NCBI RefSeq assembly: GCF_011742875.1
Contig: NZ_JAAQTL010000001.1
Location: 3,230,867 to 3,294,866 of the forward strand
DNA from: Luteibacter yeojuensis
GTDB lineage: Bacteria > Pseudomonadota > Gammaproteobacteria > Xanthomonadales > Rhodanobacteraceae
Reading direction: 5' to 3'
DNA: 64,000 bases
Shown here: in pieces, positions 4,383-11,639 of the stretch
Layout: each line of letters opens with the position of its first letter
How positions within the stretch are numbered: position 1 is the first letter of the stretch
Position numbers and translations under genes: made by a program
Notes under the pieces: model-generated
The model's input: only the letters and a program-made list of their open reading frames with translations
Told to the model about the DNA's origin: nothing
The model's database searches: none

Positions 4383-6578
4383 GTGACGGCCCAGATTCCA
4401 GCGGTACCGGCATTCCGGTATCGCGCCTTCCTCAGCTACAGCCACCGGGACGAACCCTGGGCACGGTGGCTGCACAAGGCGCTGGAAGGTTACGTGGTGC
4501 CGCGACGCCTGGTGGGGCGGTGCACGCCCTTCGGGCCCGTGCCGCGACGGCTCGCCCCCATCTTCCGCGACAGCGACGAACTCGCGACGGCGGGCGATCT
4601 CGGCGGCAAGGTCAACGAGGCGTTGGCGGAATCCGCGAGCCTGCTCGTCGTCTGCTCGCCCAGCGCCGCGACGTCGCACTGGGTGAACGAGGAAGTGGCT
4701 GCTTTCAGGAAGCTGGGCCGTGGCGAGCGCATCTGTTGCCTGATCGTTTCCGGCGAGCCTAACGCAAGCCTCGTGCCCGGAAAGGAAGCGGAGGAATGCT
4801 TCGCTCCCGCGTTGCGCACGCGCTGGCGGAAGGACGGCGCTCTCGAAGAAGAGACCGTCGAACCCGTCGCCGCCGACGTGAGGCCGGGCAAGGACACACG
4901 GGCCGAAGCGAAGTGCCGGATCGTCGCCGGCATGCTCGGCCTCGATCTCGACGTGCTGAAACGACGCGATTACCAGCGCCGCGCACGCCGCGCCATGATC
5001 TTTTCCGCCGTCGCCCTTTTCGTCACGGCCATCACCGGCGCGCTGGCGGTCGCGGCGCTCGTGGCGCGCGACGCCGCGCAACGCAGGCAGAAGGAGGCCG
5101 AAGACCTGGTCGCCTTCATGCTCGGCGATCTCAACGACAAGCTCGCCCAGGTTTCCCGTCTCGACATCATGGCGGCGGTGGACGACAAGGCGATGGCTTA
5201 TTTCCAGGCACGATCCGACGAGGATCTCGGCGACCGGGCCCTCGCGCAGCGCGTGAAGGCACTGGAGAAGATCGGCAGCGTCCGTCTGGACCAGGGGCAA
5301 CTGGCCGCGGCGATGACGTCCTACCAGGCCGCCCTCGCCATCGCGGCGAAGCTGGCAGCGACCACGCCCGATGCCGCGCACCATCTCGCGCATGCCGAGG
5401 TCGAGACCCTGGTCGGCCTGGTGTACTGGCGGCAAGGAAAGCTCATCGAGGCACAGGCCACCTTCGCTTCGGCGAAGTCGATCCTGGAGCGCGCCGCGGG
5501 ATACGCGCCGGCCGACCTCGAGATCGCGTTCCAGCTGGCGCTGATCGACAACAACATCGGCTACGTGCTGGAGGCGCAGGGACGACTGGACGAAGCGGAC
5601 GCCCAGTACCGGCGCATGCTCAGGTCGATGCAACGCCTCGTGGCGGCACAACCCGGCAATGCGGAATGGAGCGAATCGCTCGGCTCCGCCTACAGCAACC
5701 TCGGCAAGCTGGCCCTGCTGCGCGGCGACCTGGCGGAAGCCATGCGGAAGTACGCCGAGGACGAACGCATCCAGGTACGGCTCGCCGCGGAGGCGCCGAA
5801 AGACGCCAACCGCCTCGGCCGGCTGCTGACCGCGCATGCGATCCTCGGTCGCACACAGGCGCTGGTGGGGGATCCGGCCTCCGGCATGGAGCGGCTGCAG
5901 CGTGCCGTGGATATCGCGACGTCGCTGACGGCGATGGACGCCAGCAATGCCGAGGCGCAGGAGCAGGTCGCGCTGTATGGCACGCAGCTCGCGCGTCTGC
6001 GCCGGCTCGACGGCGACCTGCTGGCGGCCAGCCGCCTGACGACGAAGGCGGAAGCGATCTTCGCGCGCCTCACCGGCATGGATGCGGAGAACGCGACATG
6101 GCGGCGCGAGTACGCCGAAACGTTGACGGAACATGCGGCGCAACTTCGCGCCGTCGACGACAGGGCGGGGGCCCGTCGCCAGGCCGCCGCCGCCTCGCGC
6201 ATGCTGGCTCCCTTGTTCGCGAAGGCGCCCGACGATCGTTCCCTCCTCCTTGCCACGGCGGCCGGATGGCTTGCGCAGGCCGACGCCGAGGTCGACGGCA
6301 GCGTCGCGCGCGCGTTGCGCGAAAAGGCGCTTGCCGCGATGGCGACGACAAGAAGCGGCGAGACCGATCCGCGCCTGCTGGCGCTTCGGACGCAGGCGCT
6401 GCTGGCCCTCGGGCGCGACGCCGAAGCGGCATCGTCGATCGGGCGTCTCTGGGACGACGGTTACCGCGACGCGGCGCTGCTGGCCAGCCTGCGCGACCAC
6501 GGTATCGACTATCCCCCCAACGAGGGTTTCCGGCACCAGTTGATGGCCGCCGAGGGAGAGGTGGCGACAGACCGGTAA
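4383..6578 (+). CDS. TIR domain - transmembrane - TPR repeat protein
   Basis: This 731-residue protein has three parts. Residues about 12-165 are a TIR domain beginning RAFLSYSHRDEPWARWL, with ASLLVVCSPSAATSHWVNEE in the middle; Glu104 falls four residues after Trp100, where NAD-cleaving TIR domains carry the catalytic glutamate. A single hydrophobic helix spans about 205-228. The remainder is helical repeats of TPR type (for example IGSVRLDQGQLAAAMTSYQA and NNIGYVLEAQGRLDEADAQY). The GTG start is preceded by GGGGAG at 8 nt spacing. It is followed by a 42-residue ORF (29 bp away) and a SLOG-like membrane protein. I infer a membrane-tethered TIR enzyme or signalling protein in a defence-like operon. 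Confidence 0.88.
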   Translation: MTAQIPAVPAFRYRAFLSYSHRDEPWARWLHKALEGYVVPRRLVGRCTPFGPVPRRLAPIFRDSDELATAGDLGGKVNEALAESASLLVVCSPSAATSHWVNEEVAAFRKLGRGERICCLIVSGEPNASLVPGKEAEECFAPALRTRWRKDGALEEETVEPVAADVRPGKDTRAEAKCRIVAGMLGLDLDVLKRRDYQRRARRAMIFSAVALFVTAITGALAVAALVARDAAQRRQKEAEDLVAFMLGDLNDKLAQVSRLDIMAAVDDKAMAYFQARSDEDLGDRALAQRVKALEKIGSVRLDQGQLAAAMTSYQAALAIAAKLAATTPDAAHHLAHAEVETLVGLVYWRQGKLIEAQATFASAKSILERAAGYAPADLEIAFQLALIDNNIGYVLEAQGRLDEADAQYRRMLRSMQRLVAAQPGNAEWSESLGSAYSNLGKLALLRGDLAEAMRKYAEDERIQVRLAAEAPKDANRLGRLLTAHAILGRTQALVGDPASGMERLQRAVDIATSLTAMDASNAEAQEQVALYGTQLARLRRLDGDLLAASRLTTKAEAIFARLTGMDAENATWRREYAETLTEHAAQLRAVDDRAGARRQAAAASRMLAPLFAKAPDDRSLLLATAAGWLAQADAEVDGSVARALREKALAAMATTRSGETDPRLLALRTQALLALGRDAEAASSIGRLWDDGYRDAALLASLRDHGIDYPPNEGFRHQLMAAEGEVATDR

Positions 6579-6607
6579 GGACCGTTCCACATCCACGGGA
6601 GAACACC

Positions 6608-6736
6608 ATGGCCAATACACCCACCGACAAGACACCCGACAAGCAGACGGCTCCTGCCGAGAGCAAGCCGTCGGAGCCAACCAAGACGGTCCCCGGCGCG
6701 GACCTCACGAAGAAGGGAGGAATCAAGCCGAGCTGA
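6608..6736 (+). CDS. 42-residue Lys/Pro/Thr-rich peptide between the TIR and SLOG genes
   Basis: A short ORF begins at ATG 6608 after a good ribosome site (GGGAG, about 6 nt before the start). The product begins MANTPTDKTPDKQ and ends GADLTKKGGIKPS; it is hydrophilic, lacks hydrophobic segments and is probably unstructured. It lies 29 bp after the TIR gene and just before the SLOG-like gene, so it is almost certainly on the same transcript. No homologous domain is recognised. It could be a regulatory partner or cleavage substrate of its neighbours, but that is speculation. Confidence 0.6.
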   Translation: MANTPTDKTPDKQTAPAESKPSEPTKTVPGADLTKKGGIKPS

Positions 6737-6753
6737 CCGCCGTGAAGGCTCCC

Positions 6754-8439
6754 ATGATTCCCCTGGTCGTCGGTGTCACGAGCCATCGCGATATCGCACC
6801 CGGCCAGCTCGAGGGCATCCGCCAGCGCGTCCGTGGCTTCTTCACCGGCTTGCAGGCGCGGTTTTCCGGCGTACCCATCGTGCTCTTGTCGTCGCTTGCC
6901 GAGGGTGGCGACCAGCTCGTCGCACGGGAGGCGCTCGCGTGCGGCGTGCGCCTCATGGCGCCGCTGCCGCTGCCCCCGGATCTGTACATGGACGACTTCG
7001 ACGATGCCGACGTGCGCCGCACCTTCGAGGCGTTGCGCGACCAGGCGGAGGTGGTCCTGCTGCCGCGCCTCATGGACAAGCCGCGCCACGTCATCGCCAC
7101 GCCGGGCATCGAGCGCGACCGTCAGTACGCCACCGCCGGCGTCTACATCGCCAGCCACTGCCACGTCCTGCTCGCGTTATGGGACGGCAACGATGCCGGC
7201 GGTTTCGGGGGAACGGCACAGATCGTCTCGTACCACCTCACCGGCATGTTGCCGGGACTGGTCGTGCGTCATCCGCACAAGCGCCATGTGCTCGGTGGCG
7301 GCACGGAAAGCCTGCTTTACCATATCGTGTGCTCGCGCAGCGACGGCGCCCTGGCCAGCGGTTTGCTGCCTCTGGACGCCGGATGGCGCACCGGCGACGA
7401 CCCGGCGATGCACGCGCGCATGCCGGAGGATTTCGAGCTCATGTTCGCGCGCATGGCCGAGTTCAACCTCGAATGCCGTCGCCACGCCGCGCGCATCGAG
7501 GCGGCGCCGGCGACCCTCCACGGCACGCCCTGCGCCGCCACGGCGACGATCGAGCAGGTTTTCCATGCGGCCGACTGGCTGGCGGTGCACTTTCGACAGC
7601 GCGTGCTTCTGGCGCTGCGCATCACCTATACCGTGGCGGCACTGATGGGCATCGCCTTCACGTTCTACGCCCACGTGCCCACGCATGACTCGCTGATTTA
7701 TCTCTTCCTCCTGCTCTTCGCCACGGGCGGTGCGGTGGCCCTGCTGGCACGCCGTCGCGGCTGGCACCGCAAATACCTCGATTACCGCGCGCTGGCCGAG
7801 GGCCTGCGCATCCAGTCGTGCTGGCGCCGCGCCGGCATCGCGCCCGATGCGGACCACGAATTCGCCCACGACAACTTCCTGCAGAAGCAGAACATCGAGC
7901 TGGGCTGGATCCGCAACGTGATGCGCGCCGCCAGCCTGTATCCGTCGACGCATCCGGAAGAACCGGGCGACGCGGCGCTGAAGGAAGTCATCGAGGAATG
8001 GGTGGGCCGGTCGGGTACGTCGGGGCAGCTCGAGTACTACGAGCGGAAGACGGCCGAGCGCACCGCGCTTCACCGCATCACGGCGGCGGTTGGACACGTC
8101 AGCCTCTGGGGCGGCATAGGGATCAGCGTTTTCCTCGCCGTGTTCGCGACCCGGCTCGGCCTGGAAGCCAAGGTGACGCTGGTGACCGCCATGGCCGTGC
8201 TCTCCATCGTGGCCGCCGTGCGCGAGGCCTACGCCTACCGCAAGGCCGATCGCGAGCTTATCCGCCAGTACCGCTTCATGCAGCGAATCTTCGCCAGCGC
8301 GCGCGCCGCGCTGGATCGCACCGACGATCCCGGCAGGCAACGCGCGATCCTGCACGCGCTGGGCGACGCGGCCTTGACCGAACACGCGGAATGGACCCTG
8401 ATGCAGCGCGAGCGCCAGGTGGAGCACAGCAAGCTGTGA
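6754..8439 (+). CDS. SLOG-like (LSDAT/DprA-fold) protein with four C-terminal transmembrane helices (SLATT-like)
   Basis: The N-terminal part (about the first 200 residues) has the look of a SLOG nucleotide-binding domain. It opens PLVVGVTSHRDIAPGQL, then has LLSSLAEGGDQLVAREA and LPLPPDLYMDDF, followed by SHCHVLLALWDG. The C-terminal half carries two hydrophobic helix pairs, with the polar motif YRALAEGLRIQSCW between them and a helical tail. This resembles the membrane effector half of SLATT-type proteins. The ATG at 6754 has AAGG 5 nt upstream; a GTG at 6742 would add four residues. In TIR/SLOG systems the SLOG part senses a nucleotide made by TIR; that role here is inferred. Confidence 0.8.
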   Translation: MIPLVVGVTSHRDIAPGQLEGIRQRVRGFFTGLQARFSGVPIVLLSSLAEGGDQLVAREALACGVRLMAPLPLPPDLYMDDFDDADVRRTFEALRDQAEVVLLPRLMDKPRHVIATPGIERDRQYATAGVYIASHCHVLLALWDGNDAGGFGGTAQIVSYHLTGMLPGLVVRHPHKRHVLGGGTESLLYHIVCSRSDGALASGLLPLDAGWRTGDDPAMHARMPEDFELMFARMAEFNLECRRHAARIEAAPATLHGTPCAATATIEQVFHAADWLAVHFRQRVLLALRITYTVAALMGIAFTFYAHVPTHDSLIYLFLLLFATGGAVALLARRRGWHRKYLDYRALAEGLRIQSCWRRAGIAPDADHEFAHDNFLQKQNIELGWIRNVMRAASLYPSTHPEEPGDAALKEVIEEWVGRSGTSGQLEYYERKTAERTALHRITAAVGHVSLWGGIGISVFLAVFATRLGLEAKVTLVTAMAVLSIVAAVREAYAYRKADRELIRQYRFMQRIFASARAALDRTDDPGRQRAILHALGDAALTEHAEWTLMQRERQVEHSKL

Positions 8440-8448
8440 GGGAGGACG

Positions 8449-9213
8449 TTACCAGCGCGCGCGCGCGAACTCGGAGCGCTCGAGCCACTGCTGGAAGCCG
8501 GTCTGCGCCTGCCGGGCACCCGCACCGGGCACGAGGCTGCGCTCGTCGAGTATCGCGCCGAAATAGGGCGCGGCCTTGTCCGCCCGCACCTCGCAGGGTG
8601 CCTCCATGTCGATGACGAAACGCTGGATCAGTTCGGACATGCGTTCCCGCTCGGGCCCGGCGATCTCGATGGAACCGTTCAACGGCTCGCCCACCGCCAG
8701 CGACGCCATCAGTGCGGCGACGTCGTCGGATGCCACCGGTTGGATGTATGCCGGCGAGAGGCGGACCGTCTGGTCGCGTACGGCATCGACGATGATCGCG
8801 ACGAGGAATTCATAGAACTGCGTGGCGTGGACGATCGTGAACGGAATGCCGGAGGCCCTGATGAGGCGGTCCTGCAGCGCCTTGCCGCGAAGGTAGTGGC
8901 TGTCTTCCAGGCGCTCGGTACCGACGATCGAGAGCGTGAGGTGATGCCTCACGCCCGCGGCGATCTCCGCCGTCAGCAGGTTGTCGATGGCCGTGCGGAA
9001 GAAATCGTAGGCCGCCTCGTCGTCGAAGGTCGGGGAATTGGTGACGTCGACCACGACCTCGGCGCCGGCCATGCACTCGGCCAGGCCCTGGCCGGTGATG
9101 ACATCCACGCCGGTCGCGCGGGAGACGGCCGATACCTCGTGACCTTCCGCGCGAAGTCGCTCGACGATGTTCCGCCCTACGAGTCCTCTTCCGCCCACCA
9201 CTACGATGTTCAT
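8449..9213 (-). CDS. NmrA-like NAD(P)-binding oxidoreductase (atypical SDR)
   Basis: This 254-residue protein has a Rossmann start NIVVVGGRGLVGRNIVERL with the GGxGxxG dinucleotide motif. The body resembles SDR_a5/NmrA-type proteins (DVTNSPTFDDEAAYDFF, LSIVGTERLEDSHYLRGK, THE region FTIVHATQFYEF, and PVASDDVAALMA). The classical catalytic tetrad is not obvious, so it may be a redox sensor or an NAD(P)H-dependent reductase. The chosen ATG at 9213 starts the Rossmann strand at once and is preceded by GAGGG. The frame is open for 264 nt upstream, but that stretch is unlikely to be coding. It is 17 bp downstream of the ThuA-like gene on the same strand. Confidence 0.85.
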   Translation of the reverse strand: MNIVVVGGRGLVGRNIVERLRAEGHEVSAVSRATGVDVITGQGLAECMAGAEVVVDVTNSPTFDDEAAYDFFRTAIDNLLTAEIAAGVRHHLTLSIVGTERLEDSHYLRGKALQDRLIRASGIPFTIVHATQFYEFLVAIIVDAVRDQTVRLSPAYIQPVASDDVAALMASLAVGEPLNGSIEIAGPERERMSELIQRFVIDMEAPCEVRADKAAPYFGAILDERSLVPGAGARQAQTGFQQWLERSEFARARW

Positions 9214-9230
9214 GCCTCGTCCCTCGTGAT

Positions 9231-10100
9231 TTACGCCCGGCCGGCCAGCCAGAAGGCGATGTTCTGTACGTAACGCTTGGTGGACCTCAGCGCCTCGGGA
9301 AAGCGCAGCAGCCCGTCGCCCGGCGCCTCCGAGACGAACGGCGGGCAACCGGCCGACGTATCCCAGTTGTAATCGGCGAAATGATGGAAGGTGGATTCGG
9401 CGATGGCGCGACCGCCCGCCTCGGACTGCTCGAAGGCCACCGCGATGTTGAAATCCCTGCCGCTGCACTGGCTGCATCCCTTGAGGATCACGCGGCTGCT
9501 CGGGTCGTCGGGCGGCGCACCGACAGCGCCTTCGTGCGGATGCGAAGGAAGGAATTCGATCACTCCCGTGGCCGATCCGGGATCACGCAGCACCGGATGC
9601 ACCTCGCCGACCGCCTCCACGCGCTGGTAGTCACCGTTTGCGCCGGAGTGGTAGTTAGGCCAGGAAATGTCGGTGGTGACATTGTCGTCGATGCAGTGCC
9701 GGCTCGTATCCGGCTCCTGATTGTGCGAATGGAAGTGGTGGGCGGCGCCGATGCCGGCGAGATTGCAGATGGAACTGCCGAGGTCCATGTGGTCCCGCGT
9801 GACGAGCAGGCCGCCGCCTTCGCGGCGGAACCGGCCGATGCCTGCGCAGTCGTCGCCGGTGAGGCCGTTGCCGACGTCCACGGCGAAGAGCCAGAGTTGC
9901 TGGTAGCCGGACTCGCCGAGACGCGAGAGCACCGAATCGTTCCGGCCCACGGGGTCGCGATTGCGCGCGGTGACACGGAACGCCTGTTCGCCGTTCTCGT
10001 CGCGGATTCCTTCCAGGAACGCTTTCAGGTGACCAAAGCGCCCGACATGCCAGTCGTCGCTGTCGCCTTCAATGGTGGTCTGCAAGAGGATGTGCTGCAT
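9231..10100 (-). CDS. Uncharacterised protein, ThuA/GATase1-like
   Basis: This 289-residue cytosolic protein lacks a signal peptide. Conserved-looking blocks include FAVDVGNGLTGDDCAGI, FRREGGGLLVTRDHMDLGSS, ISWPNYHSGANGDYQRV and STFHHFADYNWD. The alternation of strands with histidine-rich loops suggests a ThuA or class-I glutamine-amidotransferase-like fold. I cannot point to a complete catalytic triad, so the reaction is unknown. Its 5' end overlaps the 3' end of the upstream histidine kinase frame by 76 nt, and it is followed 17 bp later by the NmrA-like gene, so the three probably form one transcript. Confidence 0.6.
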   Translation of the reverse strand: MQHILLQTTIEGDSDDWHVGRFGHLKAFLEGIRDENGEQAFRVTARNRDPVGRNDSVLSRLGESGYQQLWLFAVDVGNGLTGDDCAGIGRFRREGGGLLVTRDHMDLGSSICNLAGIGAAHHFHSHNQEPDTSRHCIDDNVTTDISWPNYHSGANGDYQRVEAVGEVHPVLRDPGSATGVIEFLPSHPHEGAVGAPPDDPSSRVILKGCSQCSGRDFNIAVAFEQSEAGGRAIAESTFHHFADYNWDTSAGCPPFVSEAPGDGLLRFPEALRSTKRYVQNIAFWLAGRA

Positions 10101-10936
10101 GATCGTCTGCCCTGGGAATGGGGTGCCGGCCTATCTAAACAGGTCGTTGTTTCATAGGCTTGTACGTACCGTGCGGGGGCCAGCGGCAGCCATACGCTGA
10201 AGGCCGCTCCCTTGCCCACGCCTTCCGAGTATGCGCGTACGCGCCCGCCATGGGCGCTTGCCAGCTCGCTCACCAGGGCAAGGCCGATGCCCAGTCCCGC
10301 ACAGGCGCTGCCGGGCACTTCCGGGCGGTCTTCCTCCTGGCCGAAGAGTTCGAAGAGCCCTTCGACCGCTTCCGGCGCGATGCCGCGACCGTTGTCCGCC
10401 ACGGTGATCCGTGCGAATCCCGCGTCCGCGGCGACGCTTACCTCGACGACGCCATGGACGCCCGCGAACTTCAGGGCGTTCTCCATGAGGTTGCTGACGA
10501 TCTGCTCGATCCGGACGCTGTCGGCGCAGAAGGGCAACGCGCCCGCCGGGGCGATGTCGAGCCGCAGGCGTACGGAGGGCACGGTTTTCGCCATGGCGCG
10601 CGCGACGCGCGTCACCAGCGCACCCAGGTCGAGCGGTTGCACCTCGAGACGAAGCTTCCCGACGCGCGCACGGGAAACGTCGAGCAGGTCGCCGACCAGT
10701 CGCGCCTGCCGGCGTACCATGGCGCGGATCTCGTCGCCCAGTTCGCGCAACGTCTCGTCGTCGCGCTGCGTGCCCAGCCGCCGGATGAGGTCGGCCTGCA
10801 TCATCATGGCCGCCAGGGGTTGCCTGAGTTCGTGCGCGGCGACCACGACGAACCGGTCCTTCGCCGCGGCGACTTCGAGGGCCTGGTCGCGTGCCGCCCG
10901 CAGAGTTCGACGAGTACTGGACTGTTCCTGCCTCAC
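10025..10936 (-). CDS. Soluble sensor histidine kinase
   Basis: This 303-residue HisKA/HATPase protein has no membrane helix and no recognisable sensor domain. A short N-terminal helix leads to the phospho-acceptor box VVAAHELRQPLAAMM (His35). The N box NLMENALKFA, the G1 box VADNGRGIAPE and the G2 box GLGIGLALVSELASAHGG are all present. The GTG start follows AGGTGGG at about 5 nt. The kinase fold should end near VWLPLAPARY. The last 45 or so residues are a tail that runs into the next gene by 76 nt and may be a by-product of a lost stop codon. No response regulator lies beside it. Confidence 0.82.
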   Translation of the reverse strand: MRQEQSSTRRTLRAARDQALEVAAAKDRFVVVAAHELRQPLAAMMMQADLIRRLGTQRDDETLRELGDEIRAMVRRQARLVGDLLDVSRARVGKLRLEVQPLDLGALVTRVARAMAKTVPSVRLRLDIAPAGALPFCADSVRIEQIVSNLMENALKFAGVHGVVEVSVAADAGFARITVADNGRGIAPEAVEGLFELFGQEEDRPEVPGSACAGLGIGLALVSELASAHGGRVRAYSEGVGKGAAFSVWLPLAPARYVQAYETTTCLDRPAPHSQGRRSCSTSSCRPPLKATATTGMSGALVT

Positions 10937-11138
10937 GGTCCCACCTCATACGACGCATGCCATGCGTGAAGAGTAGGCACGCCCCGGTCACCCCGCTAGC
11001 CAGCGGTTGCGGACCATGGTGTTGCCCGGCCGGCAACAATCCTTCGTTCGGGATGCGCATCGCTTATTTCGTCGGCCCGTGTGCACCGGTGCCATGACGG
11101 CGCTAATCTCCCGTCATCCCCCCTACGGAGCATGCGTC

Positions 11139-11639
11139 ATGGCGTCGAACCCGGTGGTTGTCGAGGAAACAGGGCAGGGCACGTTCCAGGTGAGGGCGCA
11201 CGGCCAGGGGCCGTCGTTCTTCATCGACGAGCCGCTTGACCTGGGTGGGCTGGCCTCCGGGCCGACACCTTATGATCTTCTCAGTGCGGCGCTCGGTGCA
11301 TGCACGGTGATGACGATACGCATGTACGCCCGCCGCAAGGGCCTCCCGCTTGCCCACGCGCAGGCGTCGGTCACGCATCGCCGCGACGAAGTCACCTCGC
11401 GCGACATCTTCGAGCGCCACGTCTTCATGGACGGCGACCTCACCCAGGCGCAGAGGGATCGCCTGCTGGCGGTCGCCGAGGCCTGCCCGGTGAGCAAGAC
11501 GTTGCATGCCGGCGCGGAGATCGTGACGCGCCTCGCGCCGCAGGCGATGCCCGTGGTCGACGACCGGCCATGCGACCGCACCCATCCCAAGGCGATGGAC
11601 GAGTCCTGCCGGCAGGTGGACCCCACGGCCGTCGCCTGA
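11139..11639 (+). CDS. OsmC family peroxiredoxin-like protein
   Basis: This 166-residue OsmC/Ohr-family protein is expected to reduce organic hydroperoxides or bind related ligands in the cytosol. It has both conserved cysteines: Cys55 in SAALGACTVMTIRM and Cys116 in VAEACPVSKTLH. The fold marker GPTPYDLLSAALG precedes the first one. The ATG at 11139 has GGAG 8 nt upstream; the open frame extends further 5' but without features. It is a single gene divergent from the histidine kinase. The C-terminal tail after the second cysteine domain is hydrophilic. Confidence 0.9.
   Translation: MASNPVVVEETGQGTFQVRAHGQGPSFFIDEPLDLGGLASGPTPYDLLSAALGACTVMTIRMYARRKGLPLAHAQASVTHRRDEVTSRDIFERHVFMDGDLTQAQRDRLLAVAEACPVSKTLHAGAEIVTRLAPQAMPVVDDRPCDRTHPKAMDESCRQVDPTAVA

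Follow-up and report, generated by a model that had tools for sequence, protein, structure and literature searches.

Three genes lie together on one strand of the chromosome of the soil bacterium Luteibacter yeojuensis (assembly GCF_011742875.1, contig NZ_JAAQTL010000001.1), at positions 4383 to 8439 of a stretch of 64,000 nucleotides that was analysed as a whole and is called the window below. They encode a receptor in which a TIR domain is joined to one transmembrane (TM) helix and TPR repeats, a 42-codon open reading frame (ORF), and a SLOG-SLATT membrane protein (the effector). The original prediction, made from the sequence alone, had described this set as a Thoeris-like defence system. 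The three-gene set is real, and the 42-residue ORF, correctly reported there but handled as a minor oddity, proved its most informative part: it ends in a short motif, here called the tag, that recurs in small genes beside related receptors. The features of the locus are as follows.

4383..6578 (+): gene of the TIR-TM-TPR receptor (731 aa), with Pfam TIR_2 and TPR_2
4428..4751 (+): TIR domain, the predicted cytosolic NAD+-cleaving part (TIR_2 at residues 16-123)
4692..4694 (+): codon of Glu104, the predicted catalytic glutamate (W-V-x-x-E)
5007..5063 (+): single TM helix, residues 209-227, by hydropathy
5064..6482 (+): juxtamembrane segment (FMLGDL..L) and TPR array, the predicted tag reader, with conserved positions common to TIR and non-TIR receptors
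6597..6601 (+): GGGAG, a ribosome-binding-like site of the small ORF
6608..6736 (+): 42-aa ORF, a member of the tagged-protein class, 29 bp from the receptor gene
6716..6733 (+): C-terminal tag GGIKPS at the end of this ORF, a variant of P-x-I-[KR]-N
6754..8439 (+): SLOG-SLATT membrane protein (561 aa), with an in-frame GTG at 6742 as alternative start
6757..7383 (+): SLOG domain, the predicted nucleotide sensor
7555..7827 (+): SLATT_3-like two-TM unit (NCBIfam NF033610)
8023..8394 (+): SLATT_1-like two-TM unit (NCBIfam NF033634; Pfam 424-547, E 0.24)

The position of Glu104 was judged by its W-x-x-x-E setting, a pattern that we take to mark the catalytic position of TIR domains, and by its invariance (E in 76/76 receptor homologues). 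The ThsB_TIR profile scores 23.5 bits on the receptor against a cut-off of 21.2, PADLOC returned only E 0.017 (TPR) and E 0.018 (ThsB) for the receptor gene, and a sequence search of the PDB matched no solved TIR to the TIR part. The net charge is higher on the TIR side of the membrane helix in 71 of the 76 homologues; with one TM helix and a cytosolic TIR, the TPR part is predicted to be periplasmic. The N-terminal domain of the effector has a SLOG fold, with Foldseek and VIA matches to YpsA, DprA and ThsA. The remainder is mostly helical, with paired long helices in the structure model, in line with the SLATT-like TM pairs that had been proposed, and its two SLATT units score below the curated NCBIfam cut-offs (26.7 of 45 bits for SLATT_3 and 23.9 of 41 bits for SLATT_1). 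A Pfam scan of the effector gave no SIR2 and no Macro match, PADLOC gave no match, and a search of its profile against PDB sequences found nothing.

The effector was found, own genome included, in 4 of 274 genomes of the class, 79 of 299 of the order and 30 of 97 of the family; it had no match in plasmid, phage or viral contig collections, and carriage on a mobile element was rejected. The first 41 loci, made up of the window and 40 fetched regions, include 30 with a TIR-TM-TPR gene close to the effector, on either side of it or on the opposite strand; of the 110 distinct effector loci (121 minus 11 duplicates), 73 have this gene within the fetched stretch. Across the 299 order genomes, both genes occur in 71, the effector only in 8, the receptor only in 4 and neither in 216 (Fisher p 3e-54, without kinship correction; effector E <= 1e-5 and receptor E <= 1e-20, the receptor genomes being sorted by hand from 87 matches, 12 of which were TPR-only). 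The family shows the same pairing, with both genes in 30 of 97 genomes, the effector alone in none and a truncated receptor alone in one (G376); 13 of its 26 genera vary, and shuffles within genera never gave 30 in 20,000 trials. All three points on which the original prediction was to stand or fall, namely the SLOG fold, the co-occurrence of the genes in other genomes and the place of Glu104, thus came out in its favour.

The two genes need not be neighbours: in one genome (G509; L192, L063) receptor and effector are 1.2 Mb apart, each adjoining its own tagged gene. Other TIR proteins also occur beside effectors, including TIR_2 with TPR (L048), TIR_2 (L043) and, by eye, two TIR genes (L051). 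The effector at L038 (3223-7859) adjoins a SIR2_2-TIR_2 protein, after which comes an nSTAND1 protein; this may be a further input module. No tag was found within 1.5 kb at these four loci; elsewhere in the genomes of L048 and L038 there is a TIR-TM-TPR gene accompanied by a tag of its own (L186, L184).

Between receptor and effector lie small genes whose products are built differently and yet share an ending: the bodies are dissimilar, and the C-terminal motif is mostly [D/N]-P-x-I-x-N. A first motif, written after 41 loci and then applied to 121 (80 of them new), matched 69 of 2169 same-strand ORFs within 1.5 kb, 1 of 2101 on the opposite strand and 1 of 9427 distant ones. With more first residues allowed and every stop codon counted, a second motif matched 77/2094, 1/1997 and 4/9476, respectively, in the 110 distinct loci, and placed tagged genes at 52 of the 73 loci with a receptor versus 3 of the 37 without. 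Manual reading added variants such as DPQVTNKPS and DPRIVNQ, and a broader motif gave 99/2135 same-strand, 4/2091 opposite-strand and 20/9476 distant ORFs, and tagged genes at 65/73 loci with a receptor versus 6/37 without; two of these six (L050 and L137) look like chance matches. Since the broader motif derives in part from these loci, the fair tests are the later sets, namely TIR receptors away from any effector and receptors with other outputs. The former have a tag at 13 of 20 loci (3 of the 20 receptors are weak or truncated), and the latter at 10 of 14 loci within 1.5 kb, or 11 with L207. Three rearranged control motifs had 6, 6 and 1 same-strand matches where a TIR receptor lies away from any effector, and 1, 2 and 0 where the receptor has another output; among the first 12 of these matches, 11 were tagged ORFs themselves, because tags such as PIIIN and PRIIN also fit. 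A DNA pattern for the tag was also tried on 97 genomes, with matches in 36 and none in the window's own genome; it was not used as evidence, because it hit many known loci but also system-free genomes, many with TGG instead of the stop.

The non-TIR receptors carry the same TM-TPR part behind a Ser/Thr kinase, behind Trans_reg_C-nSTAND1, or behind nSTAND1 with a start that we take to be DUF4062-like. Three of them (L205, L206, L217) were Pfam-scanned and the remainder sorted by eye and by the kinase motif; the 14 loci are most of the TPR-only places, two full ones and one fragment having been left out. Residues 225-694 show the same conserved positions in the 76 TIR and the 14 non-TIR receptors. 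In the stretches fetched (L204-L217, about 8-9.6 kb), the tagged small gene lies downstream of kinase- and winged helix-turn-helix (wHTH)-nSTAND-TM-TPR receptors at 11 of the 14 loci. The SLOG-SLATT gene is present in none of the 12 genomes with only non-TIR TM-TPR receptors; the 14th locus (L217) is in a genome (G320) that has both TIR receptor and effector elsewhere. The tag thus follows the TM-TPR part and SLOG-SLATT follows the TIR domain, which argues that the tag is the input and a nucleotide the output. The TPR repeats had already been suggested as the sensor, and the pairing of tag and TM-TPR under non-TIR outputs agrees with this.

We therefore read the operon as a membrane signalling relay, a reading to which we give a probability of roughly one half. 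The C-terminal tag of the small-gene product (P-x-I-x-N type) would be bound by the TPR array of the membrane receptor; binding would make the TIR domain cut NAD+, forming an ADP-ribose-type nucleotide, and this would bind the SLOG domain and open or assemble the four-helix SLATT part. Opening would damage or depolarise the cell's own membrane, with cell arrest as the predicted outcome. Many relatives carry the tag at the C-terminus of a longer body. One such body folds like the self-cleaving SO1698, and wherever the Asp-Pro bond is kept, cleavage there may release the tag as a short peptide; what is left in Luteibacter is a short disordered carrier that lacks this bond.

The small gene adjoins the receptor on the same strand, at 29 bp in the window, and 22 of 95 loci have several tagged genes. 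Such an arrangement would also suit toxin-antitoxin logic, in which the tag of the small protein silences the receptor, and loss of that protein switches on the TIR domain and the membrane effector. The ligand may activate or restrain the receptor; the distance of 1.2 Mb that can separate receptor and effector and the presence of the tag beside kinase and wHTH-nSTAND receptors make toxin-antitoxin logic distinctly improbable. Five of the multigene loci (L060, L064, L088, L096, L107) have three or four tagged genes each, mixing longer beta-rich bodies with short disordered peptides, and at L060 and L096 these include short ones with a signal-like start.

After exclusion of the L050 and L137 matches as chance, 128 distinct tagged proteins were collected, and 124 were left once four more judged to be chance (L036 7392, L049 10442, L123 6913, L148 932) had been dropped. 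With the tag removed, they fall into 32 blastp clusters. P is present at its tag position in 120 of the 124, I or V in 120 and N in 116, figures that the search motif itself partly dictates; P is preceded by D in 65 proteins and by N in 36. By length, 28 are short (75 aa or less), 94 are long and 2 could not be assigned, the short count having been lowered from 31 since L102 and L104 are cut by contig ends and the start of L064 9276 is too far in. D precedes P in 62 of the 94 long proteins versus 2 of the 28 short ones (kinship uncorrected). One protein (L072 9219-9842) has a C-terminal hydrophobic helix after its tag DPVIRN, the only such case seen by eye.

Among the long proteins, the A3 group has a beta-sandwich fold (L088 domain model, pLDDT 83.5, pTM 0.77), in which the tag forms the last strand (residues 128-131). 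The tag might then be no more than the closing beta strand of neighbour proteins that form a single divergent family, kept for folding and not for signalling, with the short ORFs of Luteibacter and Rhodanobacter as decaying remnants; two ligand groups are indeed related by profile (probability 97). We consider this unlikely. Among the 122 tagged proteins whose start could be used, about 28 do not exceed 75 aa, and genes this short are the only tagged ones at 13 of 94 loci. The short ORF of the window, whose product ends KKGGIKPS and has neither a beta-sandwich domain nor Asp-Pro, keeps its frame and tag relative to L055, with differences mostly at third positions. Furthermore, A3 cannot be aligned by profile with A4/A5, although it folds like the sequence match of A4. 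The tag might also act as a degron or a sorting signal.

The sequence match of A4 is to PDB 3nji/3njh (E 5e-4); the A4 group ends DPQIINRPQ and matches Pfam DP-EP below the cut-off (L205, 20 bits of 25). The ten best VIA matches of A3 (L088) are all SO1698, followed by MakD (8.2), 4q52 (8.1) and PixA (7.3). Against PDB sequences, the A5 and A3 profiles gave nothing beyond weak unrelated matches. The A4 profile found one weak match, with a stop, in 231 class genomes; PF08985 found none in 252, a result made uninformative by controls that were silent too. Osipiuk and colleagues reportedly described in 2012 a cut of SO1698 at D116-P117. In VIA, the chains of the wild type (3n55), Y26F, K98A, P115A and Q118A have 111-114 residues, aligned up to 116, and those of D37A, S114A, D116A and P117A have 119-122, aligned to 122-123. 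These ranges are aligned ones and not chain ends, so the lengths fit cutting at D116-P117 without proving it. A citing paper calls the Shewanella protein a self-cleaving endopeptidase (PMC11655445). The cut lies within the motif that corresponds to the tag.

Several observations weigh against the relay or its parts. Ranked by E-value, Foldseek places Ig domains first for the ligand model, with no match at E <= 1e-3, and the catalytic D37 of SO1698 is kept in about 3 of 7 A4 sequences (by eye). Since D37 is not uniformly kept and the Luteibacter peptide has neither domain nor Asp-Pro, release by self-cutting cannot be general, and NP-type and short ligands are unlikely to be freed by SO1698 chemistry. 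Tags were missing at 7 of the 20 unlinked TIR loci and at 3-4 of the 14 non-TIR loci. The 8 order genomes with the effector and no TIR receptor, and the 4 with the reverse, break the pairing; of the 8, completeness is under 90% in 5, and the effector match is weak in two (G344, G448). Kinship among the loci means that ORFs cannot be counted as independent, and some of these loci had served to define the motif. Finally, a signal-like N-terminus, scored by a simple hydropathy cut-off that misses a few, is present in 18 of 101 tagged proteins at TIR/SLOG loci, 2 of 15 at unlinked TIR loci and 0 of 12 at non-TIR loci. Most tagged proteins thus have no export signal although the TPR part is predicted to be periplasmic: either the topology is misread, or export follows an unconventional route, or other cells supply the tag. 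In the last case, and as part of the speculative broader view given below, the tag may be a danger signal that lysed kin release and survivors perceive in their periplasm.

The nearest named locus is from Luteibacter (81% identity). The flanking genes at 8449-11639 of the window are common to its closest relatives (L054, L055) and, by clustering, not to same-genus L056, L057 and L059, so that the gene set seems to occupy several chromosomal sites. By Pfam, the ten window neighbours are a fucosidase, DUF899, GST, an NAD(P)-binding protein, a histidine kinase, OsmC, DUF4865, LysR and AraC regulators and one protein without a match; these are ordinary genes, and a PADLOC scan of them gave no match. 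A further scan covered 108 flank proteins of the window and other loci, taken from at least 123 (window to L065) after six tagged, four TIR, four L061 genes and one L043 gene were left out. No PADLOC family matched more than one of them at E <= 1e-10; 48 families matched one each, some of them perhaps on the same protein. A defence-island reading was dropped, and the anticipated enrichment near defence genes found no support.

Abortive infection, in which a phage product would be sensed by the ligand body and signalled to the receptor through the tag, with the TIR signal then killing the infected cell through SLOG-SLATT, would suit the patchy spread (79/299 genomes). TIR plus SLOG is the signalling logic of Thoeris (PMC12948488), and SLATT is predicted to be a nucleotide-responsive pore (PMC7159879). 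This is nevertheless doubtful given the neighbour and flank scans and the silence of the plasmid, phage and viral collections, and sister receptors with a kinase or wHTH output point to signalling of a general kind. The label of a Thoeris-like defence system, which the original prediction had attached, is not sustained, in view also of the lack of SIR2 and Macro matches and the marginal PADLOC scores.

The tag is a testable candidate trigger for a membrane-anchored TIR receptor, and the relay would give the self-cleaving SO1698 fold a possible biological role. It also predicts one common C-terminal tag as the ligand of kinase, STAND and TIR receptors in Xanthomonadales. On a broader and rather speculative view, which we think improbable as a whole, there may be a Gram-negative peptide-sensing platform, in which a P-x-I-x-N tag, freed by an SO1698-type protein or displayed on a short carrier, is read by a periplasmic TM-TPR part with exchangeable outputs (TIR with SLOG-SLATT, Ser/Thr kinase, wHTH-nSTAND, DUF4062-nSTAND). 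No description of the tag or of the pairing was found among the titles and abstracts listed by the literature searches (subscription papers, including Burroughs et al. 2015, lay outside this search).

Among known systems, Thoeris type I (ThsB TIR / ThsA SIR2-SLOG) likewise pairs a TIR with a SLOG protein, which makes a nucleotide signal the natural reading here. In contrast to it, the present effector has SLATT-like TM units and not SIR2, the TIR domain is joined to a TM-TPR part, the set includes a gene for a tagged ligand, and the genes scanned show no defence context. Type II has a Macro domain plus a TM effector; there was no Macro match here, the N-terminal domain of the effector being SLOG. 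TRPM2 has a SLOG-like N-terminal part on a channel gated by ADP-ribose, but the root-mean-square deviation of its alignment is about 31, so it serves as an analogy only. The SLOG/SLATT conflict systems of Burroughs, Aravind and colleagues have SLATT as predicted pore effector and TIR partners; the accessible parts of these papers describe no tagged ligand or TM-TPR receptor (PMC7159879, PMC9503650). The self-cleaving beta-sandwich of SO1698/DP-EP (DUF1888) resembles the tagged domains of relatives in fold, and differs in the sub-threshold Pfam score (20 of 25 bits), the catalytic residues that are not uniformly kept and the domain-less ligand of the window. RRNPP receptors use TPRs and bind C-terminal pieces of propeptides. 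In such pairs the receptor adjoins a small gene for a communication propeptide (PMC10075063), much as the TPR receptor here adjoins a small coding ORF, a putative propeptide gene. RRNPP systems are known from Gram-positive Firmicutes and have an intracellular receptor, whereas the receptor described here is Gram-negative (Gammaproteobacteria), has one TM helix and a TIR, kinase or nSTAND output, and is accompanied by a nearly constant tag.

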